Of a stretch of DNA of 64,000 nt, positions 15,459 through 57,960 are shown piece after piece. Under the pieces are notes generated by a model. That model was not told the DNA's origin. It saw only the letters and a list, made by a program, of their open reading frames with translations, and made no database searches. A program made the translations under genes and the position numbers. How positions within the stretch are numbered: position 1 is the first letter of the stretch; each line of letters starts with the position of its first letter. The stretch is from Heterohyrax brucei (Eukaryota > Chordata > Mammalia > Hyracoidea > Procaviidae): contig CM053148.1 of NCBI GenBank assembly GCA_028571685.1, positions 85,086,001 to 85,150,000 on the forward strand, in the 5' to 3' direction.

Positions 15459-18400
15459 TACACATCAACATCCTAGGCATTAGTGAGCTGAAATGGACCA
15501 GCACTGGCCATTTTGAATCCAGAAATCATATGGTCTACTATGCTGGGAAGGAAAACTTGAAGAAGAAGGGCATTTTATTCATCATCAAAAAGAACATTTC
15601 AAGATCTGTCCTGAGGTACAACGCTGTCAGTGATAGGATAATATCCATATGCCTACAAGGAAGGCCAGTTAATATGCTATGCACCAAACAGTAAGGCCAA
15701 AGATGAAGAAATTGAAGATTTTTGCAATTCTTCTACAGCCTGAAATTGATAGAACATGCGATCAGGATGCATTGACAATTACTAGTGACTGGAATGCCAA
15801 AGTTGGAAACCAAGAAGGATCAGTCATTGAAAACACAGTCTTGGGGATAGAAATAATGTTGGAGATTGTGGAAAGAATTTTGCAAGACTAATGACTTCTT
15901 CATCACAAACACCTTTTTGAATCAGTACTAATGGTAACTGTAAACATGGACCTCATCAGATGGAATACAAAGGAAATAAATCAGCCATATCTGTGGAAGA
16001 AGATGATGAAAAGCTCCATGTCAGTAGTCAGAATAAGACCAGATGCTGACTGTGGCACAGATCATCAATTGCTCATATGGAAATTCAAACTGAAACTGAA
16101 GAAAATTAGAAGAAGTCCACAAGAGCCAAAATACGATCTTGAGGATATACCTTCTGAGTTTAAAGACCATCTCAAGAGCAGATTTGTTGTGTTGACCACT
16201 AATGACAAAAGACCAGACGAACTGTGAAATGACATCAAAAACATTATCTGTAAAGAGAGCAAAAGATCATTAAAATGACGGGACAGAAACAAAAAAATGA
16301 AATTGGATGTCAGAAGAGACTCAAAAGTGTGCTCTCAAATGTCCAGCAGACAAAGAAATACAAAAGGAATGGCAAAGTAAAAGACCTAAGTGGAAGATTT
16401 CGAAGAGTGGCTTGAGAAGACAAAAGAAAGAATTATAATGACATGTGCAAAGAGCTGGAAATGAAAACTGGAAGGGGAGAGTATGTTCTACATTTGTCAA
16501 GCTGAAGGAACTGAAGAAAAGTTAAAGCCTCCAGTTGCAATAGTGAAGGATTCTACAGGGAAACTATACGACTCTGGGAGCATCAAAAGAAGATGGAAGG
16601 GATACATACAGTCATTGTATCAGAAACAGCTGGTGGATGTTCAGCCTCTTGAAGAGGTAGCATATGACCAGGAACCGAAGGTGCTGAAGGAAGAAGTTAA
16701 GATTGCATTGAAGGCATTGCCAAACAAGGTTCCAGGAACTGTTGGAGTATGAACTGACATATTTCAATAAACAGATGCAGAGCTGGAAGTGCTAGCCTGT
16801 CTATGCCGAGAAATTTGGAGGACAGCTATCTGGCCAACTAACTGGAAGAGATCAATATTTATGCCCATTCCAAAGAAAGATGATCCAACTGAATGCAGAA
16901 ACTACCGAACAATGCTATCAATATCACATACAAGTAAAATTTTGCTCAAGATTTTTCAAAAAAGACTGCAACAGTGTACTGACAAAGAATGGCCAGAAAT
17001 TCAAGCTGGATTCAGAAGAGGATGCAGAATTGGGATATCATTGCTGATGTCAGATGAATCTTGGCTGAAAGCAGAGAATACCAGAAAGATGTTTACCTAT
17101 GTTTCATTTTCTATGCAAAAACATTTGACTATGTGGATCATAACAAATTATGTCTAACATTGTGTAAAATGGCAATTCCAGAACTCTTAAATGTGCTTTT
17201 AAGGAATCTGTATGCAGATTAAGAAGCAGTTGTACAAACAAAACAAGGGGACACTGCAAGCTTTGAAGTCAGGAAAGGTGTGCATCAGGGTTATATCCTT
17301 TCACCATACCTTTTCAATTTGTATGCCAAACAAATAATCTGAAAACCTGTGTTATATGTAGAAGAATGAGGAATCAGGATTGGAGCAGGACTCATTAACA
17401 ACCTGCATTACACAGACAACACCACCATTACTTTCTGGAAGTGAAGAAGATTGGAAACACTTACTGATAAAGATCAAAGACCACAGCTTTCAGTATGGAT
17501 TGCACCTCAACATCAAGAAAGCAAAAATCTTCACAACTGGACCAGTTAGCAACATCGTGATAAATGGACAAAGGATTGAGGTTGTCACAGATTTCATTTT
17601 ACTTGGGTCCACAATCAACAACCATGGAAGCAGTAGTCAAGAAATCAGAAGATGCGTTGCATTGGGAAAAAGTGCTGCAAAGATCTCTTTCAAGTATTGA
17701 CAAGTAAAGATGTCATCTTAAAGACTAAAGTGTGCCTTACTGAAACCATGGTCTTTTTAATCACATCATATGCATGTAAAAGCTGGAGAATGATCAAAGA
17801 ACACAGATAAAAGAGTCATGGCTTCGAATTGTGTTGTTGGAGAAGAATGTTCAACGTACCACAGACTGCCAAAAGGACAAACACATCAGTTGTCGAATAA
17901 GTACAACCAAAGTATTCCCTGGAAGTAGAGATGGCAAGACTGAGTTTTACACACTTTGGACATGTTGTTAGGAAGTATCAGTCTCTGGAGAAGGACATCA
18001 TGCTTGGTAGAGTGGAGAGTCAGAGAAAAAGAGGAAGATGCTCCACAAGATGGATTGAAACAGTGGCCACAACAATGGGCTTAAGCATGAAAACGATCGT
18101 GGACCTAGTGCAAGACTGGGTAGTGCCGGGAGCCGGTCCCAGCACTTTGTAGGGTCCCGCACGGAGGGAGGGAAGACGTCGGCGGGAAATGAACAAAGGA
18201 GACAGGAAAGAATTTTCTGGTTTAAGGCAGCCCGACCAGCAAATGATCTCAGTGTCTGTTTGTCTGAGTCAAGAGCTGTCGTCTTTATTTTTTATAGGTG
18301 AGGTGAGGTAGTTGGTCACCCTATTTTCTTTATTATACAAACTATTGGTTAACAAGAAACTGACCCCTCATTATTGGCTAACAGGAAACTGCCCCCTCGT

Positions 18401-36119: not shown

Positions 36120-36744
36120 ATGTTTCTGTTGGTCACAGCAGCTGCTGGGCTGCTGACCATGCCAGGCGTGATGGGCAGCCCTGAGGACAAGGACGAAGAG
36201 TTGGTGCAGCCTGTGCTGGAGCTCGCCAGGGGAAACCAGACCACGCGCCTTAGCCTGGATGCCTTTGGTTTTCATCTGCTCTTGGAGCTGCAAGCTGACC
36301 ATGGCTTCCTGGCACCTGGCTTCACACTCCAAACCATGGGGAGCATACCACGCCCTCAGGTGCTATACTCAGAAACAGTAGGGGACCTGGAACGCTGCTT
36401 CTACTCTGGCATAGTGAATAGAGATCCGCACTCTTCAGCAGCCCTCAGCCTCTGCGACGGCGTGCATGGCGTCTTCTACCTGCAGGGTGAGGCATTCTTC
36501 ATCCAGCCCTCACCCACCAATGACACCGAGCCTTTTGACCCCTTGGAATCCCAGGAAGTACAGCCTCAGCAGCTGTCTTTCCATCTCCTGCAGCGGAGGC
36601 AGCAAGGTGGAGGTCCAGGCGGAGGCAGAGGTGAAGGCTTAGAGTGTATTGTAGGGGAATATTCAAGTGACTCGGACCCTGATGTCCGGGATGAATGGCG
36701 TCAGTGGCATTACAAAGACTGGGAGGACGATGAAGAACCAACAG
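36120..36744 (+). CDS. ADAMTS1-like: ADAMTS1-like exon 1: signal peptide and prodomain
   Basis: I chose the ATG at 36120 because it begins a hydrophobic stretch ([12 protein letters not shown]) followed by SPEDKDEEL, a normal secretory start. In-frame upstream ATGs at 35904 and 35967 would add 72 or 51 residues ahead of the signal sequence. The prodomain keeps [30 protein letters not shown] and [12 protein letters not shown], and a candidate cysteine-switch Cys in LECIVGE. NQT and NDT are potential N-glycosylation sites. The donor is at 36745 (phase 1). The start context has C at -3, which is weak. Confidence 0.88.
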
Positions 36745-39700
36745 GTACCAGCCAGAGAAGAGCTTTTCTTCCTATCTTTCCATTTTTCTCTTTCTCCATT
36801 TTTTTTCACTGCGAACAGCTTTCAGATAGATCCCTGTTCTCATGTTTAAGTATGTATCTGCTGAAGAGACAAAGACTTGGAACTTAGAAAAGTGGTTGGA
36901 ATTTCAGGGTGGTGAAATCAGGAGTGACTTAGAGAGCTCTGCTGGCTGCCCTCCCACCAAGATTTTACTTTATCTTGGGGAGGAAAAGATGTATTGTACC
37001 TGGTTAAGATTGGAGGATTTCAAAGAGGGCCCAAATCCACCCATCTCATGCCACTTATAGTCTAGCCCTTCAAATGAGCACCAGCCCTCTTTATTTGTTT
37101 TTGTTTCTGTTGTTCTGTGTGTATTTTTGTTTTCTTTGACCTGTTAGGCTTTTATTACATGCTCTGGAAAGGTATGGAAACCTTGGTGGTGTAGTGGTTA
37201 AGTACTAAGTCGGCTAGCCAGAAGGTTGGCAGCTCAAATCTGCCAGAAGCTCCTTGAAAACTCTATGGAACAATTCTATTCTGTCCTATGGGATCACTAT
37301 GTATTGCAATCAACTCAACAGCAGTGGGTTGGGTTTGTTTTGGGTTATTTGCTTTGGCCCATTAGGCTTTCTTTGTTACTCTGCAAAGATACATATTCTT
37401 GGAGAGACTGCCTGTGGAGCAAATGACTTTCCTTGTTTCCTTACAGGAACTGAAAGTAGACGAAATAAGCGTTTTGTGTCCCGCCCCCACTTTGTGGAAA
37501 CCATGCTTATGGCTGACAGGTCAATGGTGGATTTCTATGGTGTTGGCCTGAATCGTTACCTTCTCACCTTGTTCTCGGTGGCCTCCCGGTTGTACAAACA
37601 CCCCAGCATTCAGCATTCAATTAACCTGGTGTTAGTGAAGATCGTGATCATCTATAATGAATGGGAGGGGCCAATTATAACGTCTAATAACGAACTTACG
37701 TATGAAGACTTCTGCGACTGGCAAAGGTATCACAATCCACGCGGTGACCAGCATCCAGAGCACTACGACACAGCTGTTCTTCTCACCAAACAGGTGCGCC
37801 AAAAAATGTACCTCTTATGACAGAACCATCTGAGGTTCAGTCTGCTTTGTACCAAACAGATATGTATAAAGAATTGCCACCAATGTTTTTGCACAGAAAT
37901 ATTATCTCTGTAAGTTTTACAACGTCTTCCTAAAAGACAAGTCAACAACAGCAAACGTAGATGCTTGAAAAAGCATGTGAAGTCACTCCACTGAACAGTT
38001 TGACCCCAAAGCTCATGCTTTGTCCCAGTTAATAAGACTACATCTTTGTCTCTCCTAGGACCAATGTGACTCTCGTGGGTGTAATGTTCTGGGGCTAAGT
38101 GATGTGGGAAAAATGTGTAGAAGAGGGGACAGCTGCTCAATCCTGAAAGATCATGGTTTACGAACTGCCTACACCATGGTCCATGAGTTAGGTAAGTTAG
38201 CTTTCTAGTAAGGGCTAGGCTCCATTAATGAATTCAAACACATAAACAAATATATTAATTTAAAAGGTAGTTTTCAAAAGGTGCGCTGGCTGTTTTATGT
38301 GTGAAAACATTTTAGAAACAGAAGATGCATTTTTCACAGTTTCAAAAAATATGATCTCATTATAATATTAAATACAGTAGTAGAAGCCATGGACATTTGG
38401 AGGTACCTTGGTGACACAACTGTCAAACACTTGGCTCCTCACCTAAAGATCAGCCGCTCCAACCCGAAAGATGTGGTAGCTGGCTCCTTTGAAGATTCAC
38501 AGCCTGGAAGCCCTATGAGGCAGCTGTATAGGGTCATTATGAGTCAGGATTGACTCAATGACTATTTTTTTTTAATGGACTTTTCTTATCACCCCATGTA
38601 AAGTAGATACTGTCTCCCAAAATAAATCTCTTTCTCTAGTTCTGTTACTTTAAGACAAATGACTTCCTGTTGGGAAAAAATAATAATAATTCTGGAGATG
38701 ACCTGCATTTTAATGTGTTTTTTGCATTGCTTCTTAGGCCACTTGTTTAACATGCTGCATGATAATGCGAAGATGTGTGCTGACCTTAATGGTGATAATG
38801 TGTATTCCCACCTCATGTCCCCGATAAGGGACAAAATGGACCTTAGCCCATCTTGGTCTCCCTGCAGTGTAGACAAACTTACTACATTTCTGAATGAAGG
38901 TTATGGTAAGAAACCCAAGCTGTTCTTTCCAAATGAAGTCCTAGCCTCCAGCTATAGACTTCTGGCTCAACAAGATGTATTTTTTCATTCTGCTTCCTTT
39001 TACCTCCTTCAGAATTAATCTTCACTACAAAAACGACCAGTTTTTGCATCTTAATTCCCATTGCAGTGTGGTGCTTCAATATGAATAGGTCCCAAAGTGG
39101 AGCAATTGAAATTTCAGCATAACAATAAACCCGTGTGGTTATTAACAGAGTAATGCCCCATTATTCATAAAATCTTTCCCAAAATTTTCAATTTTGTGTT
39201 TACAATCTCTATAGTTTTGAAGTCGCTTTGCTTTGTTTACACTACCTCACTTGACAAGTATGCTCTGAAAATGTGATCTAGCCTCTGCATGCTTTCACTA
39301 GTTGTTTACTTACGCTTGGCTGGCCTTTTCTTTACAGGGCAGTGTTTGCTCGACCCACCCCAAAATCCCTTAAAGGTACCATCCGACTTCCCAGGGACCT
39401 TGTATGATGTTGACAAGCAGTGCCAATTTGCATTTGGGGCTGATTCCAAGCACTGTCCTGATGCAGCCACTACGTGCCAGTCCCTGTGGTGTACCACCAT
39501 CTTCAGCAACATAGTGATATGCAAAAAGAAAAATATTCCTTGGGCAGATGGGACCAGCTGTGGAAACAAGAAGTGGTGTATCAGTGGCCAGTGTGTGAGC
39601 AAAACTGAGAGCAAGCCATTTCGTGTAAGTTTTTCTACTGGCAGGTTCATGGGCCTTCAAAAGCTGAAATTAAAAAGAACAGTCGCTCCAGATGAAGAGA

Positions 39701-42676
39701 TAACTCTTTGTCACCTAGTTGACTCTAGCTACTGGCACCACTCTGGGTTTCAAGAGTAGAATTGGGCTCCAAAATGTTTCTGAAATATATGATAACAAGT
39801 TGAACAAAACCTATCTGTGTCCTCCAGCAACAGTGTGAGAGTGATAGTTTTCGTAATTAATCCTGCATTCCGTAACTTTTTCTTTTAATCTCTGAATGTT
39901 CTCTTTGCAGAATTCTAACACTGGTGATTTGTGTTCCCAATTAGACTCCTGTTAATGGAAGGTGGGGCCCATGGGGGCCCTGGGGAGACTGTTCGAGGAC
40001 TTGTGGTGGAGGAATTCGGTATAAGATGAGGGAGTGTGACAACCCGGTCCCAAAGAATGGAGGAAAGTACTGTGTAGGCAAGAGAGTGCGCTACCGATCC
40101 TGCAACACTGAGGAGTGCCCAGATAATAATGGTGAGTCAGCATGAACTCCAAGGTTTTGCAAGTGATGGAAATGAGATACCAACTAACTGGAGATTAAAA
40201 CTAAAGACTGAAATATTCACATTGTCATTCTCTTTCCAGGAACAACCTTCCGAGAGGAACAGTGTCAGGCTCACAATGGTACTTGGCAATTGTTCTTTAA
40301 GAATGGGTCTGCCGTGGAGTGGACAGCAAAGTACACTGCCATATCTTCAGTAAACAGGTGCAAGCTCATCTGTGAAGTCAAAGGCCTTAACTATAGCTAT
40401 ATTTTGGAGCATAAGGTAATTGCATGCAGGCTTATTATCTACCTGGAAGCCAATGTCTTGACTTACACATTCTCATTCAACCTTGATTAATAGGTTTATT
40501 TAGTTTGTATATAAACAAGTATTCAATTTCAAATCAGCTACTGACTGATTTGAAACCCTGGTGATGCAGTGGCTAAGTGCTATAGGTGCTAACCAAAATT
40601 CTGGCAGTTCAGATCCACCAGGTGACCTTGAAAACTCTATGGGGCCATTGAACAGCAATGGGTCTGGTTTGATTTAGTTGACTATTTTGAGTTTGATGTT
40701 ATTTTCACTTATGAATGAAGCTTGAGTCAATTAATGATTTGTGATTCATCCAGCTGCTTGCTGTTTCTCTTATATTCAAATATAAGTAGCCGTACTGGCA
40801 AAGTAGTTAAGTTCTTGGCTGCTAACCAAAAGGTTGGTGGTACATATAAGTCCAATAGCTCCCCTGGAGAAAGACATGGCAGTCAGCTCCTTAATGATGA
40901 CGGCTGAGTTTTATTCTGTCTTGTTGGTGGTGCCATGAGTTGGCATCAATTCCATGGCATCTAATAACAGTGTGAAAGATAATCTCCTTGAAAAACTAAG
41001 CATTTCTCTGCACAACTAGGTTTCATGTATGACTCATGGTTAGATAGTTCATAAACTAAAACAGTAGTCAGTGCTTTGGGAAAATATTTTAGACACAGTT
41101 CAAACTACTTGCTCCTGGGTAACTAGCAGTAGCATGTGCAAATGGACTTGCTAAAAACGAAATCTGAGCATTGACACTTGTAAGGTTTCAGAACATATAT
41201 AAAACAGTAGAAATATCCTGTGTTTTGCAGTTTTCTTAGGGTGAGAGTTTAAATCTGGATCTGAACTAGAAAGGCTAAGTTAGTTTGATTGAGATTAGCA
41301 CATGCCATTAAAACTGTGGGCTGTGAACATACCTCAAAGCTGCAGTAAATAAACCGGCCAAAGGCTCTGCTTTCACTGACATTAGCTATTGGTCGGAGTT
41401 CACTACAAGCAACTGGTTTTTTGCCTGCCATCATTCTAGACACAGAGGGTACACCAGTAAATTAACTGGCCAAAGGCTCTGCTGTCATTGACATTAGCTA
41501 AAGAGGAGATAAGAGCAATACACAGATAATAAAACAATGCTTTGTTTTTACAAATATCTAAGGCATATGAGCCCTTGGGTTGTATAAACGGTTTATGCAT
41601 TTGGCTACTAACGGAAAGACTGAAATGTTCAAGTCACACAGAGTGCCTTGAAGAAAAGACCGTGCAAGCTACTTCCCCAAAGTCAGCCACTGCAGGTCCT
41701 AATAGAACCCAGTTCTGCATTGATACATATAGTGTCATTGTGAGGCCTAAGGAACCCAGTTGCAACTGCTGAGCTTGGACAAGTACTGTAGCCGTGGAGC
41801 AAATCAGAAAGAGAGAAGACAACAGGCGTAGTCAGTTGGTTTCTAATTCAGTCATAAAAGCGGAGCTTGGCCTCTTATCCATGTTATTGCCACGGCCACT
41901 TCTAATGCTAATGAGAGGAAGTCTCTCAGTTAGGGTTGCGCTGATTGCTTTGTTCATATGTAACAACAGATACGTGTTCCCTTTTCCAGGTTGTAGATGG
42001 TACTCTGTGTAGCCCAGATTCCACCTCTGTCTGTATGCAAGGAAGGTGTGTGAGAGCTGGCTGTGATCGTGTCATAGACTCCAATAAGCAGTTTGATGAA
42101 TGTGGTGTCTGTGGAGGCTATGGATCTACATGTGAGCAAATAATGGAATCAGTCACTAGTACAGGGTAAGTTTAAAAATGACCTGATCTCAAATTAGTTT
42201 ATAACCGAGATATAACTTGTTTACAAGTCTGGTTGAAAATGTAATAGTGACCAATTATTAATGTCTCTTTAGTGAACTCATGGAATCAGCCAGTGGATGA
42301 CAGCTCATTATATCTGTTTTTCCTCACTTGCAGACCTGGATATCATGATGTTGTCACAATTCCTACAGGAGCTACAACCATTGAAGTAGAACAACAAAAT
42401 CAGAGGGGATCTACAAATAACGGAACCTTTCTTGCCATCAAAGCTGCTGATGGCACATATGTACTGAATGGTAACTTTACCTTGTCCACTTCAGAGAAAA
42501 ACTTCATGTATAAAGGTACTTTTTTGAGGTACAGTGGCTCCTTGGCAAAGGTGGAAAAAATTGTCAGTCCTGGCCCACTCAAAGAACCTTTAATCATCCA
42601 GACCCTTACTCTGGGCAATCCCCCTCCATCTGACATTGATTACACTTATTTTGTGAAGAGGAACGAAATTTTCTAA
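36120..42676 (+). CDS. ADAMTS1-like: ADAMTS1-like secreted metalloproteinase, nine exons
   Basis: CDS is the join of 36120-36744, 37447-37793, 38059-38191, 38738-38905, 39338-39624, 39945-40131, 40240-40415, 41990-42165 and 42334-42676 (2,442 nt, 813 aa). Every intron is GT-AG and phases match, with no internal stop. Domain order: signal peptide (about 1-20), prodomain, furin site RRNKR (213-217), reprolysin-type catalytic domain with [12 protein letters not shown] (366-377), disintegrin-like domain, TSP1 repeat (about 521-583), Cys-rich domain with the TFREEQC start, and spacer ending in YTYFVKR. Family knowledge: such enzymes cleave extracellular proteoglycans (versican, aggrecan). Human ADAMTS1 is 967 aa and has two further TSP1 repeats, which are missing here. 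The sequence is clearly closest to ADAMTS1 from memory, yet too diverged to be its simple ortholog, so I infer a paralog. The conserved catalytic residues and clean splice sites argue for recent or current function; expression is unknown. Confidence 0.9.
37165..37340 (+). mobile_element. AfroSINE, sense, intron 1
   Basis: It is a well-preserved copy: ACCTTGGTGGTGTAGTGGTT, AAGTACTAAGTC, GGTTGGCAGCTCAAATC, TTCTATTCTGTCCTATGGGA and a GGGTTGGGTTTG tail. Confidence 0.88.
37447..37793 (+). CDS. ADAMTS1-like: ADAMTS1-like exon 2: furin site and first half of catalytic domain
   Basis: It follows a pyrimidine-rich tract and CAG acceptor. It encodes GTESRRNKR then [18 protein letters not shown], so the proprotein convertase site RNKR is retained and the mature enzyme would begin at Phe218. 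[17 protein letters not shown] and NWQ/HNP-like blocks match the ADAMTS catalytic fold. The donor follows CAG at 37793, phase 0. Confidence 0.9.
38059..38191 (+). CDS. ADAMTS1-like: ADAMTS1-like exon 3: catalytic domain up to the zinc motif
   Basis: It encodes [17 protein letters not shown] through TMVHELG, containing the first zinc-ligand His (366) and the catalytic Glu (367). The acceptor is CTCCTAG and the donor GTAAGT, phase 1. The cysteine spacing matches the ADAMTS1 segment that begins DLCGSQTCDTLG. Confidence 0.9.
38394..38577 (+). mobile_element. AfroSINE, sense, intron 3
   Basis: TACCTTGGTGACACAACTGT, CACTTGGCTCCTCACC, GGTAGCTGGCTCC and GGGTCATTATGAGTCAGGAT mark it as a distinct AfroSINE subtype with a longer body. 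Confidence 0.75.
38738..38905 (+). CDS. ADAMTS1-like: ADAMTS1-like exon 4: zinc motif, Met-turn
   Basis: It completes [12 protein letters not shown], so all three zinc-binding His (366, 370, 376) and the following Asp are present. SHLMSP supplies the Met-turn, where ADAMTS1 has SHMMAS, and SWSPCS follows as in the family. Conservation here is the best sign that proteolytic activity was kept. Confidence 0.9.
39338..39624 (+). CDS. ADAMTS1-like: ADAMTS1-like exon 5: disintegrin-like domain
   Basis: It encodes [11 protein letters not shown] through [41 protein letters not shown] and KTESKPFR. The cysteine pattern of the ADAMTS disintegrin-like domain is complete. The donor is a perfect GTAAGT at 39625, phase 0. 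Confidence 0.9.
39945..40131 (+). CDS. ADAMTS1-like: ADAMTS1-like exon 6: first (only) thrombospondin type 1 repeat
   Basis: It encodes [17 protein letters not shown], then [15 protein letters not shown] and CPDNN, almost identical to the central TSP1 repeat of ADAMTS1. The Trp and Cys residues of the module are present. The acceptor is CCCAATTAG; the donor is GTGAGT, phase 1. Confidence 0.92.
40240..40415 (+). CDS. ADAMTS1-like: ADAMTS1-like exon 7: Cys-rich domain, part 1
   Basis: It encodes [14 protein letters not shown] through [10 protein letters not shown] and [10 protein letters not shown] to EHK, matching the start of the ADAMTS1 Cys-rich domain. NGT is a possible glycosylation site. 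Acceptor CTTTCCAG, donor GTAATT, phase 0. Confidence 0.9.
40545..40682 (+). mobile_element. AfroSINE, sense, intron 7
   Basis: ACCCTGGTGATGCAGTGGCT, GCTAACCAAAATTCTGGCAG and AACAGCAATGGGTCTGG; the middle is deleted. Confidence 0.8.
40788..40972 (+). mobile_element. AfroSINE, sense, intron 7, longer subtype
   Basis: TGGCAAAGTAGTTAAGTTCT, GCTAACCAAAAGGTTGG and GCCATGAGTTGGCATCAATT. Same longer body type as the intron 3 copy. Confidence 0.75.
41352..41500 (+). repeat. Local duplication in intron 7
   Basis: A 36-base segment at 41352-41387 (GGCCAAAGGCTCTGCTTTCA and on) recurs at 41465-41500 with a few mismatches, 113 bases later. Confidence 0.8.
41575..41772 (+). mobile_element. AfroSINE, sense, diverged, intron 7
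   Basis: GGTTTATGCATTTGGCTACT, GGAAAGACTGAAATGTTCAA and AGCTACTTCCCCAAAGTCAG fit the longer subtype, heavily mutated. Confidence 0.6.
41990..42165 (+). CDS. ADAMTS1-like: ADAMTS1-like exon 8: Cys-rich domain, part 2
   Basis: It encodes [35 protein letters not shown] and GSTC, the hallmark end of the ADAMTS Cys-rich region. The donor GTAAGT at 42166 gives phase 2, joining to PGYHD in the next exon. Confidence 0.9.
42334..42676 (+). CDS. ADAMTS1-like: ADAMTS1-like exon 9: spacer domain and stop
   Basis: It encodes [43 protein letters not shown] in its blocks, and [14 protein letters not shown] to [11 protein letters not shown], then TAA at 42674-42676. The stop falls where ADAMTS1 reads FNAI: the Asn codon has become TAA. 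The spacer is therefore complete and translation ends before the last two TSP1 repeats. Confidence 0.9.
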
Positions 42677-43015
42677 GCTATTCGTGTGCCTCAGAGTGAG
42701 TTATTGAAGAATGAGGAAAGTGTTTCAAGTCATGTGGATCCTGGTGGCAGCAGAGATGGTGGAACACAGAGACTTCAACACGCAGCCAGCTTCAGAGTGT
42801 GTCAGTGAAGCCAGCCAGCGCCAAGCCATGTGAACACTGGGACTGTCCCTACTGGTATCTTTGGGAGTGGTTGCCGTTGTTCTAAGAGCTTGGGGCAGGG
42901 TTTCAAATAGGAAAAACCAAGTTTCTTCTGTTCCATGATGGAAGTTGTTGGTACATGAGAGCTGTAACCCTTTAAATAAACATAATCATTTACAAAAAAC
43001 TGTGTACAGTGGCAG
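42677..43015 (+). pseudogene. Decayed remains of TSP1 repeats 2 and 3 (now 3' UTR)
   Basis: Translation past the stop still resembles the C-terminus of ADAMTS1. In one frame it reads stop-VIEE-stop-GKCFKSC where ADAMTS1 has WVIEEWGECSKSC, so two TGG codons have become TGA. The next frame gives HRDFNTQPASEC (ADAMTS1: CRDINGQPASEC), then the earlier frame resumes with VKPASAKPCE and DCPYWYLWEW. Weak matches to the third repeat (FHDG, CTVAES) follow between further stops. At least three frame changes and several stops are visible, so this cannot be coding. Confidence 0.82.
42975..42980 (+). terminator. Poly(A) signal AATAAA
   Basis: A canonical AATAAA lies 299 bases after the stop codon, inside the decayed TSP1-3 remnant. 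A second AATAAA at 43646-43651 is a fallback. Which is used is unknown. Confidence 0.5.
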
Positions 43016-44130
43016 AATCCAATTGGTAGAATGCAGTTAAGCAGGCTCAGGGATGAGGAAGAAGCAAAGTACGTAAGTGCTGGCACCCAGAAATCAAGTA
43101 GCCTGGAAGGCTCTAGTATATCTTGCGGGCTGGTGATGAGGAGAAATCAGTGAGATGGTAGGTTGGGACTAGACGTCAATCCCCTGCCACTGACAAATTT
43201 AGCAGGATAGTTAACGAGGATTTTTAAAAGATGACAAAGCCACAGGGTGTCATTATTATTTCTTACATCTGTTACAAGCTTTTTGAAAAAGATGGGGGAG
43301 AAGGAAAAGACTGCTAGTTCAATAAGGATTAGAACCACTGTTTCCTGGTTCTAATTATATCCTTTGTATGGTGGCAACTGATAAAGGACAAAACGGAGAA
43401 AGACGAGATTTTAAGTTTCAATCATGGCTTCCCTTTACCCCACTGACCCTGGGGGAGAAAGCAGTAGACAGGATGTTTGCCCAGTCTGATGTTCGGCTGC
43501 TATAGTTTCAGAGAAGTTTTGGTTCCAGTTTTACTACTAAGCTGTAAGAATTCAGATTCTCCAGCCTGAGGCAGGCTCAGCAAACCACAAAAGGCTGCAA
43601 TGCCCCATCTTTACCTGTGTGTATCATCCTCACCTTTACTTGTGTAATAAATTCTGATGAGTAAATAATGACATGGTTTGTAAGAATGCATTAAGCTTTC
43701 AAAGGCAAAAAACAAGCAGTGACAAATCAGATGTTAGAAAAACTAGAGCCATGGTGCACTTGGTACCTCCTGCCCTTCTTTCCTCCTACACAAGCATGCT
43801 TTAGAAATAACGTACATGAACATCGAATGTCTCTAGAAAGTCAAATCACATGAAAAGAATGTAATGTTAGAATAAGAATGGGGTCTGTAGAGTGGGTCAC
43901 ATGCGTACAGGGATTTTAAAGTGACTTGTTTCATGATATGGAGGCTACTGAAGGGTTGCAGGTCCATCTCCAGCAACTGCTCCAACAGTTACGTCCTGGT
44001 GACGTTCTCTTAGGTTCTTCAACTATGACAGCGAGAACATCTTTTTCCATGTGTATATAGTGAAATATATTGCTGTAATTTATACGTACTTTATAAGTAT
44101 TTACTTGTGTTTCCCTTCTAACAAAGACTA
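43016..44130. other. Region downstream of the gene
   Basis: It probably includes the distal 3' UTR (AATAAA at 43646). No further exon, repeat or frame is recognisable. Confidence 0.4.
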
Positions 44131-45960: not shown

Positions 45961-46029
45961 TTTCCAGCAGATTTTCTGAATGCAATATGTCATTTATTTA
46001 TTGACTGCTTTTTCCTTAGCTTTGGTATT

Positions 46030-47510
46030 TTTGTTGTTGTTGTTAGGTGCCATTGAGTTGATTCTGACTCACAGTGACCCTGTGTACAATAGAACAATAT
46101 ACTGTTTGTCTTGCACCACATGCACAATTGTTGTTATGCTTAAGCTCACTGTTGCAGCCACAATATCAATCCATCTCATTGAGGGTCTTCTCCTTTTCAC
46201 TGACCTTCACTCTACCAAGCATGATGTTCTTCTCCAGGGACTTATTCCTCCTGCTGACATGTCCAAAGTACATAAGACGCAGTCTTGCCATCTTTTCTTC
46301 AACGTAGCACTCTTGTTGTACTTCTTCCACAACAGATCTGTTTGTTTTGGGGGCAGTCCACAATATATTGAATATTCTTCTCCAACACCAGAATTCAAAG
46401 GTGTCAATTCTTCTTTGTCTTCCTTATTCATCATCCAGGTTTTGCGTGCACATGTTGTGATTGAAAATACTGTCTTAGACTGGGTTTTTCTAGGGAAGCA
46501 AAACAATCAACACATATATGTACAAGGAAAGATTTATATACAAAGTACAAGCAAAGATTTATATGTAAACAGCTCTTGCAATTGCAGAAGCTGAATGTCC
46601 CAAGTCCTGTCACAAGGCTCACATGGCCACAGGAGCTGGTGAACCCAGAGTCAGCAGGTCAGAGACCAGAGATCTAGATCACTGGTTGTGTAGGTTGGCA
46701 GATCGCCAGCTGGCAGCAAGAAGGAGCTGCAGAAGTTGGCGTACACATGATTGGCAGGTCAGGGAGCAGGACTCTCAAGCATTGGCTGTAAGGGTTGAGA
46801 AATCCAATAGCTTCTAGGTCAGGTCCAGGAACCAGACACCAGAAGGCAGCAGGAGCTGCTGGCTATGTGAGCACACTGGCAGTAGGCAGTGGAAGGTGGA
46901 GAGACAAGAGCTGGGGGACAGGAAGCAGCACCACAGGCCCTGCCCTGCCACTTGATACAGCAGCCAAACCCGGAGTAGCCAAGTTGACATAATCCTGACC
47001 ACCATAAATACCAGGGCTTTGGTCAGACACACCTTAGTCTTCAAGGCAGTGTCTTTAATTTTCAATATTTCCCCAAAGCTATGCACCCTTTGATTTCTTG
47101 ACTGCTCTTACATGGGTATTGATTGTGGAACCAATGAAATAAAACCTTTGACAACCTCAAGTCTTCATCTGTTTATCACATTATTGCTTAATGGCCCAGT
47201 TGTGTGGATTTTTGTTTTCTTGATGTCCAGTCACAATCCACGCAGAAGGCTGTCCGCCATGGGTGACTTTGCTGGCATCTAAATACCAGTGACATAGCTT
47301 CCAGCATCACAACAACTTGAAAGCCCCCACAGTAAGACAAACTGACAGACAAGTAGGAGATAACTGATATTGTATCCAAGGAAAATGAAATCCTTCACAA
47401 CATCAACCTCTTCTCAGCTTATCTTGTCTGATAAGTGTGGTAAGTGATCCTGCTTATTGATACAGTTCTGAGTGGTTTTATTTTCTTTGTGTTGAAGTTT
47501 AAATCCATAA
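46030..47510 (-). mobile_element. RTE LINE interrupted by an LTR-like insert
   Basis: 46030-46481 is the 3' part, with frames such as MARLRLMYFGHVSRRNKSLE then KNIMLGRV on the minus strand. 47012-47300 continues upstream into the reverse transcriptase (CACACCTTAGTCTTCAAGGC). 47380-47510 is a partial repeat of the same segment. Confidence 0.78.
46482..47011 (+). mobile_element. LTR-like insertion inside the RTE
   Basis: It starts TGTCTTAGACTGGG directly after AAAATAC and ends ACCACCATA before AATACC, so a short AAATAC-type target duplication is likely. It is G/C-rich and noncoding. Family not identified; a nonautonomous LTR is my best guess. Confidence 0.5.
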
Positions 47511-54289: not shown

Positions 54290-57200
54290 TGTTCATGTGG
54301 CTGCCCTTGATTCTGTAGGATACAAACTGAGAAGTGGGATTGCTGGATCAATTGCTATATCTATTTCCAGTTTTTTAAAGAAGTGCCAGATTGCTTTCCA
54401 AAGAGAATGTACCATTTTACAATCCCACCAGCAATGTAGGAGAGTTCTAATTTCTCCACAGTCTCTCAAGTATTTGTTGTTCTGCCTTTTTTGCATCATG
54501 GTTTACCTTGTTGGGGTGAAACACTATCTCAGTGTAGTTTTGATTTGGATTTCTCTAATAGCTAATGATTGTGAACATTTCCTCATGTGTCTTTTCGCTG
54601 TCTGGGTATCCTCTTTGGCGAAGTGTCTGTCCATCTCCTTTGCCCATTGCTTAATCAGGTTATTTACCTTTTTATTGCTGATATTTTGCAGTACCTTGTA
54701 GATTATGGAGATCAGACATCAGTCCAGCTTGTAGTTGGCAAATATTGTTTCCCATTGTGTCCAGCCAAGCCAAGTGCTGTTGAGTTTAATTCTTTCGATA
54801 TTTGAATGAGAAAAGGTGTTTGATTCTTAGTAGTTCTGACTTACCTACTTTCTCTTCTGTTGATAGTGCTTTGTCAAATTTTGAAGTCTGTCTAAGCTGT
54901 GTATTAAAGCTTCCATTGTTAACTCTATTTTTTCTTCCATGATCTTTATCATTTTATGTTTGGTATTTAGCTCTTTTACCCAATTTGAGTTAGTTTTTGT
55001 GCAAGGTGTGAGATACTGGTCTTGTTTTAATTTTTTTGCGGATGGATATGCAATTTTGCCAACACCATTTGTTAAAGAGAAAGTTTTCACTCCACTTTAC
55101 AATCTTAGGGCCTTTGCCAAGTATCAACTATTCCTAAGAGGATAGTGGCATCTCTGGGGTCTTAACTGTGTTCCATTGATCTATATATTTCTTTTTCTAC
55201 CAGTACCAGGCTGTTTTTACTACTGTGACAGTGCAATAGCTTCTAACATTGGGTAGTGTGAGGCCTCCCACTGTGTTTCACTTCTTCAGTAGTGCTCTGC
55301 TTATCTGAGGTTTCTTCCCTTTCCAAAGTTGATGATTTGTTTCTCCACCTCACTTTAAAATGTCACTGGAATTTGTATTGAGATTGTATTGTATGCGTAG
55401 ATTGCTTTGGTAAAATAGACATTTTCACAATGTTAAGTATTTCTGTCTACGAGCAGGGTAGGTTTCTTTATTTATGTAATTCTGTCTTGTGTTCTTGCAG
55501 TACAGTCTTCTGGTTCTCTTTGTAATGGTCTCATATTTCTCTAGTTGGACTTCTTCCTAGGTATTTTATCTTCTTGGGAACAATAATGAGTGATATTGAT
55601 TTAGTGATTTCTTTTTTGATGATCTCTTTGTTAGTATAAAGGAATCCTACTGTTTTACTTATGTTTATCCTGATACTTTGCTGAACTCTGCTATTAGTTC
55701 AAGTTGTTTACTTAATGGATTCTTTAGAATTCTCTGCATATACAATCATATCATCTGCGAATAGGGAGAATTTTACTTCTTCTGTGTCAGTGACTATGCC
55801 CTTTGTTTCTTTGCCTTGTCTAATTGCTCTGGCCAGAACTTCTAGTACAATGTTGAATAGAAGTGGTGAGAGCGGGCATTCTTGTCTAGTTCCCCTCTCA
55901 AAGGGAATTCTTTCAGTCTCTCTCTCCATTTAGGATGAAGTAGGTGGTTGACTTTGCATAGATGCACCTTATTACATTGAAAGATTTCCCTTCTATTCCA
56001 ATTTTGCTGAGAGTTATTTAGCACGAATCAGTGTTGGATTTTGTCAAATGTCTTTTCTTCATTAATTGACAAAATCAGGTGATTCTTATTTTTTGTGTTA
56101 CTTATGTGGTTGATCACATTAATTGCTTTTCTGATGTTGAACCAGACTTGCATCCCTGGTATGAATCCAATGTGGTCATGATGAATTTTTTTTTATATGC
56201 TGTTGAATTTTATTGGAAAGGATTTTGCTGAAGATTTTTGCATCCAGATTCATGGAGGATATTGGTCTGTAATTTTCCTTCATTGTTGGATCTTTCCCTG
56301 CCTTTGGTTACTCTGTCTTAATAGAAAGAATTGGAGAGTATTCCATCCATTTCTGTGCTGCGAGATAGTCTCAGTATTAGAGTTAACTCTTCTTTAAAAC
56401 TTTTGTAGAATTCTGCAGTGAAGCCATTTAGGCCAGGACTTTTTTTGGCTGGTAGTTTTTGGATGAATTTTTCAATCTCTTCCTTTGTGATGGATTCATT
56501 AAATTGTTCTATTTCTCCTTTTGATAATTTTCATAGGTTATATGAATCTAGAAATTTGTCCAATTCCTCTAGGTTTTCAAATCTGTTAGAGTAAAGTCTT
56601 TCATCGCATTCTGTTATGATACTTTTGATTTCAGTTGGGTCTGTTGTGACATCTCCCATATCATTTCTTATTCAGGTTATTTGTTTCCTCTCCTGTTTTT
56701 CTTTTGTAAGCTTAGCAAGTGGTATTTTGTTGATTTTTTTGAAGCACCAGCTTTTGGTCTTACCATTTTTTTTCAATTGTTCTTTTATTCTGTGATTCAT
56801 TTAGTTCTGCTCTAATCTTTATGATCTGTTTTCTTCTGGTGACTGAAGGGTTCCTCTGTTGCTCTCTTTCTACTTATTCAAGATGTAGAGTTAATTCCTT
56901 GATTTGGGTCCTTTCTTTCTGCTGGATGTATGGATTTATAAAGATCAATTGACCTCTGAGCACTGCTTTGGCTGTATCTCATAGGTTCAGGTAGGATGTG
57001 TTTTCATTCTCATTTGAATCTGTTAATTTCTTTATTTCATCCTTGATTTCTTCTATAACCTATGGCTTTTGGGGCAAGGTGTTCAGTTTTTATGAGTTCC
57101 AATTGCTATCTACGTTTTTTTTTCTGCTATTGATTTTGACTTTTATGGCTTTTGGTCTGAGATGATGCTTTGCAATAATTCAGTGGTCTGGATTTCACTG

Positions 57201-57960
57201 AGATTTGCTTTGTGTCCTAACACATGGTCTATTCTGGAAAATGTTCCATGCACATTGGAGAAGAAGGTGCACTTATCTGACAATGGAAAAAAAGTTCTGT
57301 ATATGTTGATGACGTCCAGTTTGTTAATTGTCACAGTCCCAATAAGGTCCTCTGTGTCTTTACTGAGCTTTTTTCTGGATGATTTGTCCATTACTGAAAG
57401 TGGAGTGTTGAAGTTTCCAACTGTTATTGTGGCGTGATCAACGTCATTTTTCAGTGTAGTAAGTGTCTGTTTGATGTTTTTAAATGCTCTGGTATTGGGT
57501 GCATAAACGTTTAATATTATTAAGTCCTGCTTGTGTAGTGAACCTTTCAGCAATAGATTGTGACCATCCTTGTCCACAAGAGTGGTTTTACATTAAATAG
57601 ATTGTGACCATCCTCATCCACAAGAGTGGTTTTACATTAAAATCTTTTAAATCTGGGTTTAGTATTGCCACACCTGCTCTTCTTTCTATGTTGTTAGCTT
57701 GTTAATCTTCAGTTTGTTCATATCTTTAAGTCTAATGTGTGTTTCTTGTAAGCAACTTATATATAAGTCATGTCTTTTGATCTAGGATGTCACTTGCTGT
57801 GTTTTTATTAGAACATTCAGTACATTTACATTCAGTATAGTTTTTGATAGGTATGTGTTTAGTGATGTTGTTTTCGTGCATTTTTTTTTTTCTTGATGTT
57901 TTCTTTGTTACTCTTAATATGCTCTCTGGGTCAGTCTTCTTTATGTGTTGACTTTTCATC
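54290..57960 (-). pseudogene. L1 ORF2 remnant (endonuclease and reverse transcriptase)
   Basis: The endonuclease part includes LIILNVYAPNTRAFKNIKQ and GNFNTPLS (57577-57143). The reverse transcriptase part includes [20 protein letters not shown] and the FADDM catalytic box (55929-55708). The C-terminal piece with WWDCKMVHSLWKAIWHF lies at 54499-54293. Multiple frameshifts and stops; inactive. Confidence 0.88.
57553..57639. repeat. Tandem duplication of about 44 bp in L1 ORF2
   Basis: AATAGATTGTGACCATCC through GTGGTTTTACATTA occurs twice back to back with few differences. Confidence 0.85.

Follow-up and report, generated by a model that had tools for sequence, protein, structure and literature searches.

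The window analysed here, a stretch of 64,000 nucleotides of Heterohyrax brucei DNA, carries a nine-exon gene related to ADAMTS1, and raises the question of what this gene is and whether it still encodes a working protease. The initial annotation had described it as a single long-standing ADAMTS1 paralog held under constraint. The observation itself was confirmed; the interpretation was too narrow, as both a large array of related copies and the loss of the last two thrombospondin-type repeats (TSR2-TSR3) had been missed. From its sequence and its relatives, the gene is probably functional, encodes a secreted ADAMTS1-branch zinc metalloprotease and belongs to a lineage-specific expansion that arose in an afrotherian mammal through DNA-level duplication.

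The nine exons (Table 1) join, as first reported, into one open frame of 2442 nt encoding 813 aa plus a stop, with canonical GT...AG boundaries at 8/8 introns. A second in-frame ATG is also present upstream of the modelled start of exon 1. These eight introns rule out a retrocopy, in agreement with the earlier reading, and their retention indicates that the copies arose by duplication of DNA. Behind the stop codon, a tblastn search with the C-terminus of tenrec ADAMTS1 matched TSR2-TSR3 from 42691 (E 1e-15, 38% over 117 aa). The matching sequence contains stops and lies in pieces in two frames. This broken relic points to a founder of ADAMTS1 architecture, with the last two TSRs lost in the window copy; an ADAMTS1 ortholog with two C-terminal TSRs is not what the window holds.

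Table 1. Features of the window gene and of the sequence directly behind it (window positions).
Feature	Position	Strand	Description
Exon 1	36120..36744	+	Start Met, signal-peptide-like stretch, propeptide
Exon 2	37447..37793	+	Propeptide end, furin site, catalytic domain start; M8a vs. M8 P 7e-12 (15 copies)
Furin-type site RNKR	37461..37472	+	Sequence
Exon-2 codons 69-90	37653..37718	+	8/10 exon-2 positive-selection sites with posterior >0.9
Exon 3	38059..38191	+	Catalytic domain, S2' loop, zinc motif start; M8a vs. M8 P 1e-7 (nominal)
S2' loop CDSRGCNV replacing CG..TCDT	38065..38088	+	4/5 exon-3 selected sites inside
Exon 4	38738..38905	+	Zinc motif remainder (motif split over exons 3/4), Met-turn LMSP
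Exon 5	39338..39624	+	Catalytic domain end, disintegrin-like/CR2 domain
Exon 6	39945..40131	+	Central TSR1
Exon 7	40240..40415	+	Cysteine-rich domain
Exon 8	41990..42165	+	Cysteine-rich domain end
Exon 9	42334..42676	+	Spacer domain, then stop codon
TSR2-TSR3 relic of ADAMTS1	42691..43037	+	Outside the open frame; stops and frameshift; tblastn
AATAAA	42975..42980	+	Candidate poly(A) signal, sequence only

The remainder of the window was also surveyed. A 204-aa open frame with a hydrophobic start lies 3.3 kb behind the gene (45980-46591, +) and had no Pfam match. Pfam searches of ten long window ORFs for neighbouring genes gave weak matches below curated cut-offs only, among them reverse-transcriptase/endonuclease matches at 16771-17154 (+) and 57146-57592 (−) that fit old retroelements. 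Repeat motifs gave 8 and 7 hits over both strands of the window versus 1 and 0 on one strand of one shuffled sequence. These repeats look like AfroSINEs.

Within the predicted protein, Pfam identified propeptide, reprolysin, ADAMTS_CR_2, TSP_1, ADAMTS_CR_3 and spacer domains above cut-offs. The features that define the ADAMTS family are present: a reprolysin HExxHxxxxxHD motif with Met-turn, a propeptide with furin site, and disintegrin-like (Dis), central TSR, cysteine-rich and spacer domains. The zinc motif, the Met-turn LMSP and the RNKR site are kept, as had been claimed. No cysteine shared by 15 or more of the 18 therian ADAMTS1 rows was lost within the frame and none was gained; 12 more conserved ADAMTS1 cysteines fall in the C-terminal TSRs that the protein lacks. 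Among solved structures, ADAMTS1 was the best match (425 bits), followed by ADAMTS5 (385) and ADAMTS4 (327). The sequence is thus of ADAMTS1 type, which rules out an ADAMTS4 ortholog.

Divergence from ADAMTS1, previously thought to be spread over the protein, proved uneven. The protein carried the therian majority residue at 53% of positions in the propeptide (101/190), 56% in the catalytic domain (122/216), 60% in Dis (52/86), 64% in the cysteine-rich domain (78/121), 72% in the spacer (80/111) and 85% in TSR1 (51/60). Across 35 vertebrate ADAMTS1 rows, 47 of the 252 aligned invariant positions were changed in the window protein: 26/95 in the catalytic domain, 10/48 in the cysteine-rich domain, 7/33 in the spacer, 3/25 in Dis, 1/28 in TSR1 and 0/23 in the propeptide. 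Residues unseen in these rows occurred about equally at invariant (47/252) and at the most variable sites (50/213), a measure biased by the greater number of residues that variable columns show. Such near-equal rates would fit relaxed or positive selection rather than strict constraint. The Glu of the SVIED stretch, which we take to be a calcium ligand, is replaced by Lys in the window protein and by Lys or Arg in 7/15 copies; this change would count against intact function in the window copy.

Database searches gave no close relative among the matches listed. Leaving aside an unverified 1284-aa sturgeon entry, the window protein was best matched by placental ADAMTS1, at 60%; none of the best 120 of 502 matches exceeded 61%, and these 120 held ADAMTS1 entries and no ADAMTS4-named entry. 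The catalytic piece gave 37 matches, none above 63% identity, and a copy ending at TSR1, used as a query, gave none above 65% among the best 120 of 647. For the window and TSR1-ended queries, scoring covered the ~8000 candidates sharing most words. Tenrec was the only afrotherian named among the matches listed, and no annotated ortholog of the window gene was found among them, in line with the earlier statement that no named gene of this kind was known.

Relatives were then sought in the assembly that contains the window (3.49 Gb, 62 contigs). Tenrec ADAMTS1 gave at least 52 matches (48 of 564 candidates scored), 47 of them on contig C9, with 44 at 83.59-85.18 Mb and three at 120.0-120.1 Mb. 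The full-length ADAMTS1 of the host lies at C9:83588963-83598423, 1.53 Mb upstream of the window gene on the same contig, where the array begins; outside the propeptide, most of its exons share 80-96% identity with mammalian ADAMTS1. This upholds the view that the window gene is a paralog and not the ortholog. A second TSR-bearing copy, c85172, occupies C9:85172503-85181113. An exon-2 query of the genome returned 47 rows from 67 scored candidates; we set aside seven as other ADAMTS genes, presumably so from their identity (47-54%) and place. The other 40 rows represent 38 ADAMTS1-derived loci, 32 in the main cluster and four at 120 Mb (both on C9) and two on C7, so that the supposed single paralog is one of 38. 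The exon-2 match was free of stops and frameshifts at 28/38 loci, including one (C9:84574257) that matches residues 23-114 of 115 only, and 10/38 carried one. Locus c85156, in which exon 2 is lost, was left out of the count. These ten disabled loci and the wrecked c85156 indicate that the array loses genes. By sequence, this is a large afrotherian expansion of ADAMTS1, of which our paper searches found no description; in the main text of PMC7952090 the word ADAMTS occurs 0 times. Elsewhere in the genome, three reprolysin frames of 750-841 aa are open and lie close together, with 19 more reprolysin matches, 15 of them with stops (G000:C21:10.13-10.18 Mb and C21:52.5-65.2 Mb), which suggests other metalloprotease clusters. 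A search for cytochrome b gave 18 matches, every one of which bore marks of a nuclear copy or a fragment, and none lay on a contig recognised as mitochondrial.

An array of this size could in principle be largely false duplication in the assembly. The four exon-2 loci at G000:C9:120.03-120.12 Mb form a satellite block in which the protein of c120033m is identical to that of c84194 across exons 2-6, and this block is therefore either a segmental duplication of very recent origin or a false duplication. The other modelled copies differ widely, even the window and its nearest copy being separated by 222 of 2427 aligned coding bases, and architecture varies between copies. We regard an artefact on the scale of the whole array as extremely improbable.

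Seventeen loci, the window included, were modelled. They lean towards intact copies because they were chosen for exons that showed in the tenrec ADAMTS1 search, c85156 having come with flank. Exons 1-5 were open with splice sites in 15/17; the exceptions were the wreck c85156 and c120033m, in which exons 2-6 were open and exon 1 was not found within the fetched piece. All 15 copies have an in-frame ATG, either at the modelled start or upstream of it. All nine exons were found in 6/17 loci (ADAMTS1, c85172, the window, c85066, c84542 and c84442m). In the remaining nine, exon 6 was open with splice sites in five, and exons 7-9 were broken or not found, some fetched pieces stopping short of the expected exons 8-9; c84882m had the sole open exon 7. 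The frame stops a few residues from the end of TSR1 in c83663, c83844, c84117, c83736 and c84686m, and after a short tail in c84194 and c83893m; that of c84766m stops inside TSR1, whereas that of c84882m runs past it. Two shortened architectures therefore recur, one ending after the spacer, as in the window, and the other at about TSR1. HExxH was kept in 14/15 copies and RxKR in 10/15, the window among them. Copy c84442m (G000:C9:84436700-84443700, L052) has nine open exons and the motif HKIGH, in which the catalytic Glu is lost, and is a possible pseudoenzyme inside the array.

A tree of 36 protein rows (quick search, SH-aLRT support only) placed host ADAMTS1 and 14 copies in a single clade (97) with tenrec ADAMTS1 as its sister (99), consistent with the afrotherian-type host proposed at the outset. 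The four spacer-ended copies formed a clade (94), as did eight TSR1-ended copies (98), with c84882m unplaced. In a 40-row tree the window protein had fallen among tenrec and rodent sequences, its branch 1.8 long; once the paralogs were added, it grouped with them. With the window nested among the copies and a full-length ADAMTS1 elsewhere, the window gene is not the host's only ADAMTS1. The expansion would date to after the split from tenrec, the one other afrotherian in the tree, unless tenrec lost copies.

Comparison with the nearest copy, c85066 (L049), showed how unevenly the gene has changed. Exons 2-9 had 0 gap columns, and gaps were found in 7/8 introns. Identity was 84-91% in seven of the eight introns, 86% in the TSR relic, 77% in exon 3 and 82% in exon 4. 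From the start of exon 6 to the end of exon 7, intron 6 included (39945-40415), it rose to 98-100%, and this stretch is likely a gene conversion patch between the two copies. In exons 3-4, dS was raised as well (0.415 ± 0.103). We therefore set aside positive selection alone as the reason these exons outran the introns, and exchange between copies may contribute.

Over the whole frame, the window and c85066 gave a dS of 0.149 ± 0.018, a dN of 0.083 ± 0.007 and a dN/dS of 0.56; by part, dN/dS was 1.13 in exon 1, 0.56 in exons 2-4 and 0.34 in exons 5-9. The exon 1 value counts against a functional gene. Against host ADAMTS1, the window gave a dS of 0.58, a dN of 0.27 and a dN/dS of 0.46, and c85172 a dN/dS of 0.23. 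The claim of constraint thus held as far as the pairwise ratios below 1 go, and gave way in the catalytic exons, which partly look positively selected.

The open frame could also have survived by chance in a recently silenced member of a birth-and-death array. The exon-2 stops and frameshifts at 10/38 loci, the decayed TSR2-TSR3 of the window copy and the lost catalytic Glu of c84442m are in keeping with such an origin. Under random substitution at the observed amount, however, the frame stayed stop-free in ~2% of simulations, dN and dS against c85066 are more than three standard errors apart, and the splice sites and cysteines are all retained. The window gene has neither a disabling change in frame nor a dN/dS of ~1, and we consider silencing unlikely and a functional gene the better reading.

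Across the 15 copies, GY omega for exons 1-5 was 0.58, 0.59, 0.94, 0.61 and 0.53. Site-level tests were run with a custom M7/M8 programme, which agreed with IQ-TREE on omega in exons 2-4 (0.698 and 0.695). With exon-specific trees, M8a vs. M8 gave P values of 4e-4, 7e-12, 1e-7, 0.012 and 3e-5 for exons 1-5, and statistics of 3.6, 6.5 and 0.8 for exons 6, 8 and 9 (11, 6 and 6 copies). Null simulations, 12 each, reached maxima of 3.6 for exon 2 (observed 45.7) and 10.5 for exon 3 (observed 27.1); three of the 12 exon-3 runs passed the nominal 5% line, which makes the exon-3 P optimistic. Conversion within exons between copies could inflate the M8 tests, and the site posteriors are naive. Catalytic exons 2 and 3 show site-level positive selection, including the S2' loop. 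The selected exon-3 sites correspond to ADAMTS1 363-366 and 370, and the exon-2 group listed in Table 1 to ADAMTS1 313-334.

The position of these sites bears on what the protein may do. In ADAMTS4 the S2' loop reads CGVSTCDT (PMC9620172). Its Asp can bind zinc in the uninhibited enzyme; the corresponding residue in the window is Asn. For human ADAMTS1, PMC10033314 describes spacer versican exosites at R756/R759/R762 and loop 828-835, an enzyme that is still active with modestly raised versicanase when the C-terminal TSRs are removed, and one that loses versicanase 64-fold and retains peptidase activity when cut back to TSR1. The window has Q, R and T at the three Arg positions and LGNPPPSD at the loop, with K795 kept. 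The window protein would be a secreted enzyme, synthesised as a zymogen that furin cleaves. Its altered S2' loop and spacer exosites would give it another bond preference than ADAMTS1 and make it a poor versicanase, and we infer an active protease with weak proteoglycan targeting. A changing target may have diversified the family, and the likeliest candidates are perhaps matrix or inhibitors found in the placenta or reproductive tract. We guess at these tissues by analogy because ADAMTS1, a developmental gene, acts in ovulation as well as organ formation, and ovary and placenta are among the tissues that express it (PMC10033314).

The copies might instead act chiefly as binders or decoys without catalysis, for instance of TIMP3 or matrix, with the catalytic changes reflecting relaxed enzymatic constraint. 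The HKIGH motif of c84442m, the RxKR site missing in 5/15 copies, the basic residue at the SVIED Glu and the 26/95 changed catalytic positions of the window would suit that role. It is at odds with HExxH in 14/15 copies, with the zinc ligands, Met-turn and furin site that the window retains, and with positive selection, not relaxation only, in exons 2 and 3. We find decoys improbable and prefer an active enzyme.

Compared with known systems, the window gene shares with host ADAMTS1 (G000:C9:83588963-83598423) its order of domains as far as the spacer, the placement of its introns, its zinc and furin sites and its cysteines, and differs in its ~60% identity to placental ADAMTS1, its missing TSR2-TSR3 and its altered S2' loop and spacer exosites. 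Copy c85172 belongs to the same array with the full nine exons and, unlike the window gene, keeps TSR2-TSR3 and ADAMTS1-like catalytic exons. Ending after the spacer with no further TSRs recalls ADAMTS4, as described in PMC4349717; the window sequence is nevertheless of ADAMTS1 type, and because its relic remains, its TSR loss is secondary and separate from ADAMTS4. The same source describes mammals with 19 ADAMTS enzymes. A 38-locus expansion of ADAMTS1, with its recurrent truncations and selected catalytic sites, would supply naturally occurring variants in which catalysis is uncoupled from exosite targeting. Snake venom metalloproteinases evolved by local duplication, stepwise loss of C-terminal domains and fast change of the protease domain. 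The window gene is not one of them, as it descends from ADAMTS1 and not from an ADAM-type ancestor, and the array is likened to them in evolutionary mode only and differs in founder gene and mammalian host. Tentatively, one mammal lineage may have built up, independently, a large repertoire of secreted proteases from ADAMTS1, in the same mode and from a different founder, with C-terminal targeting domains shed stepwise and active-site loops changing under an arms race, be it sexual, maternal-fetal, between host and parasite or of protease against inhibitor. The array would then be a mammalian parallel to other fast-evolving families of secreted proteases.
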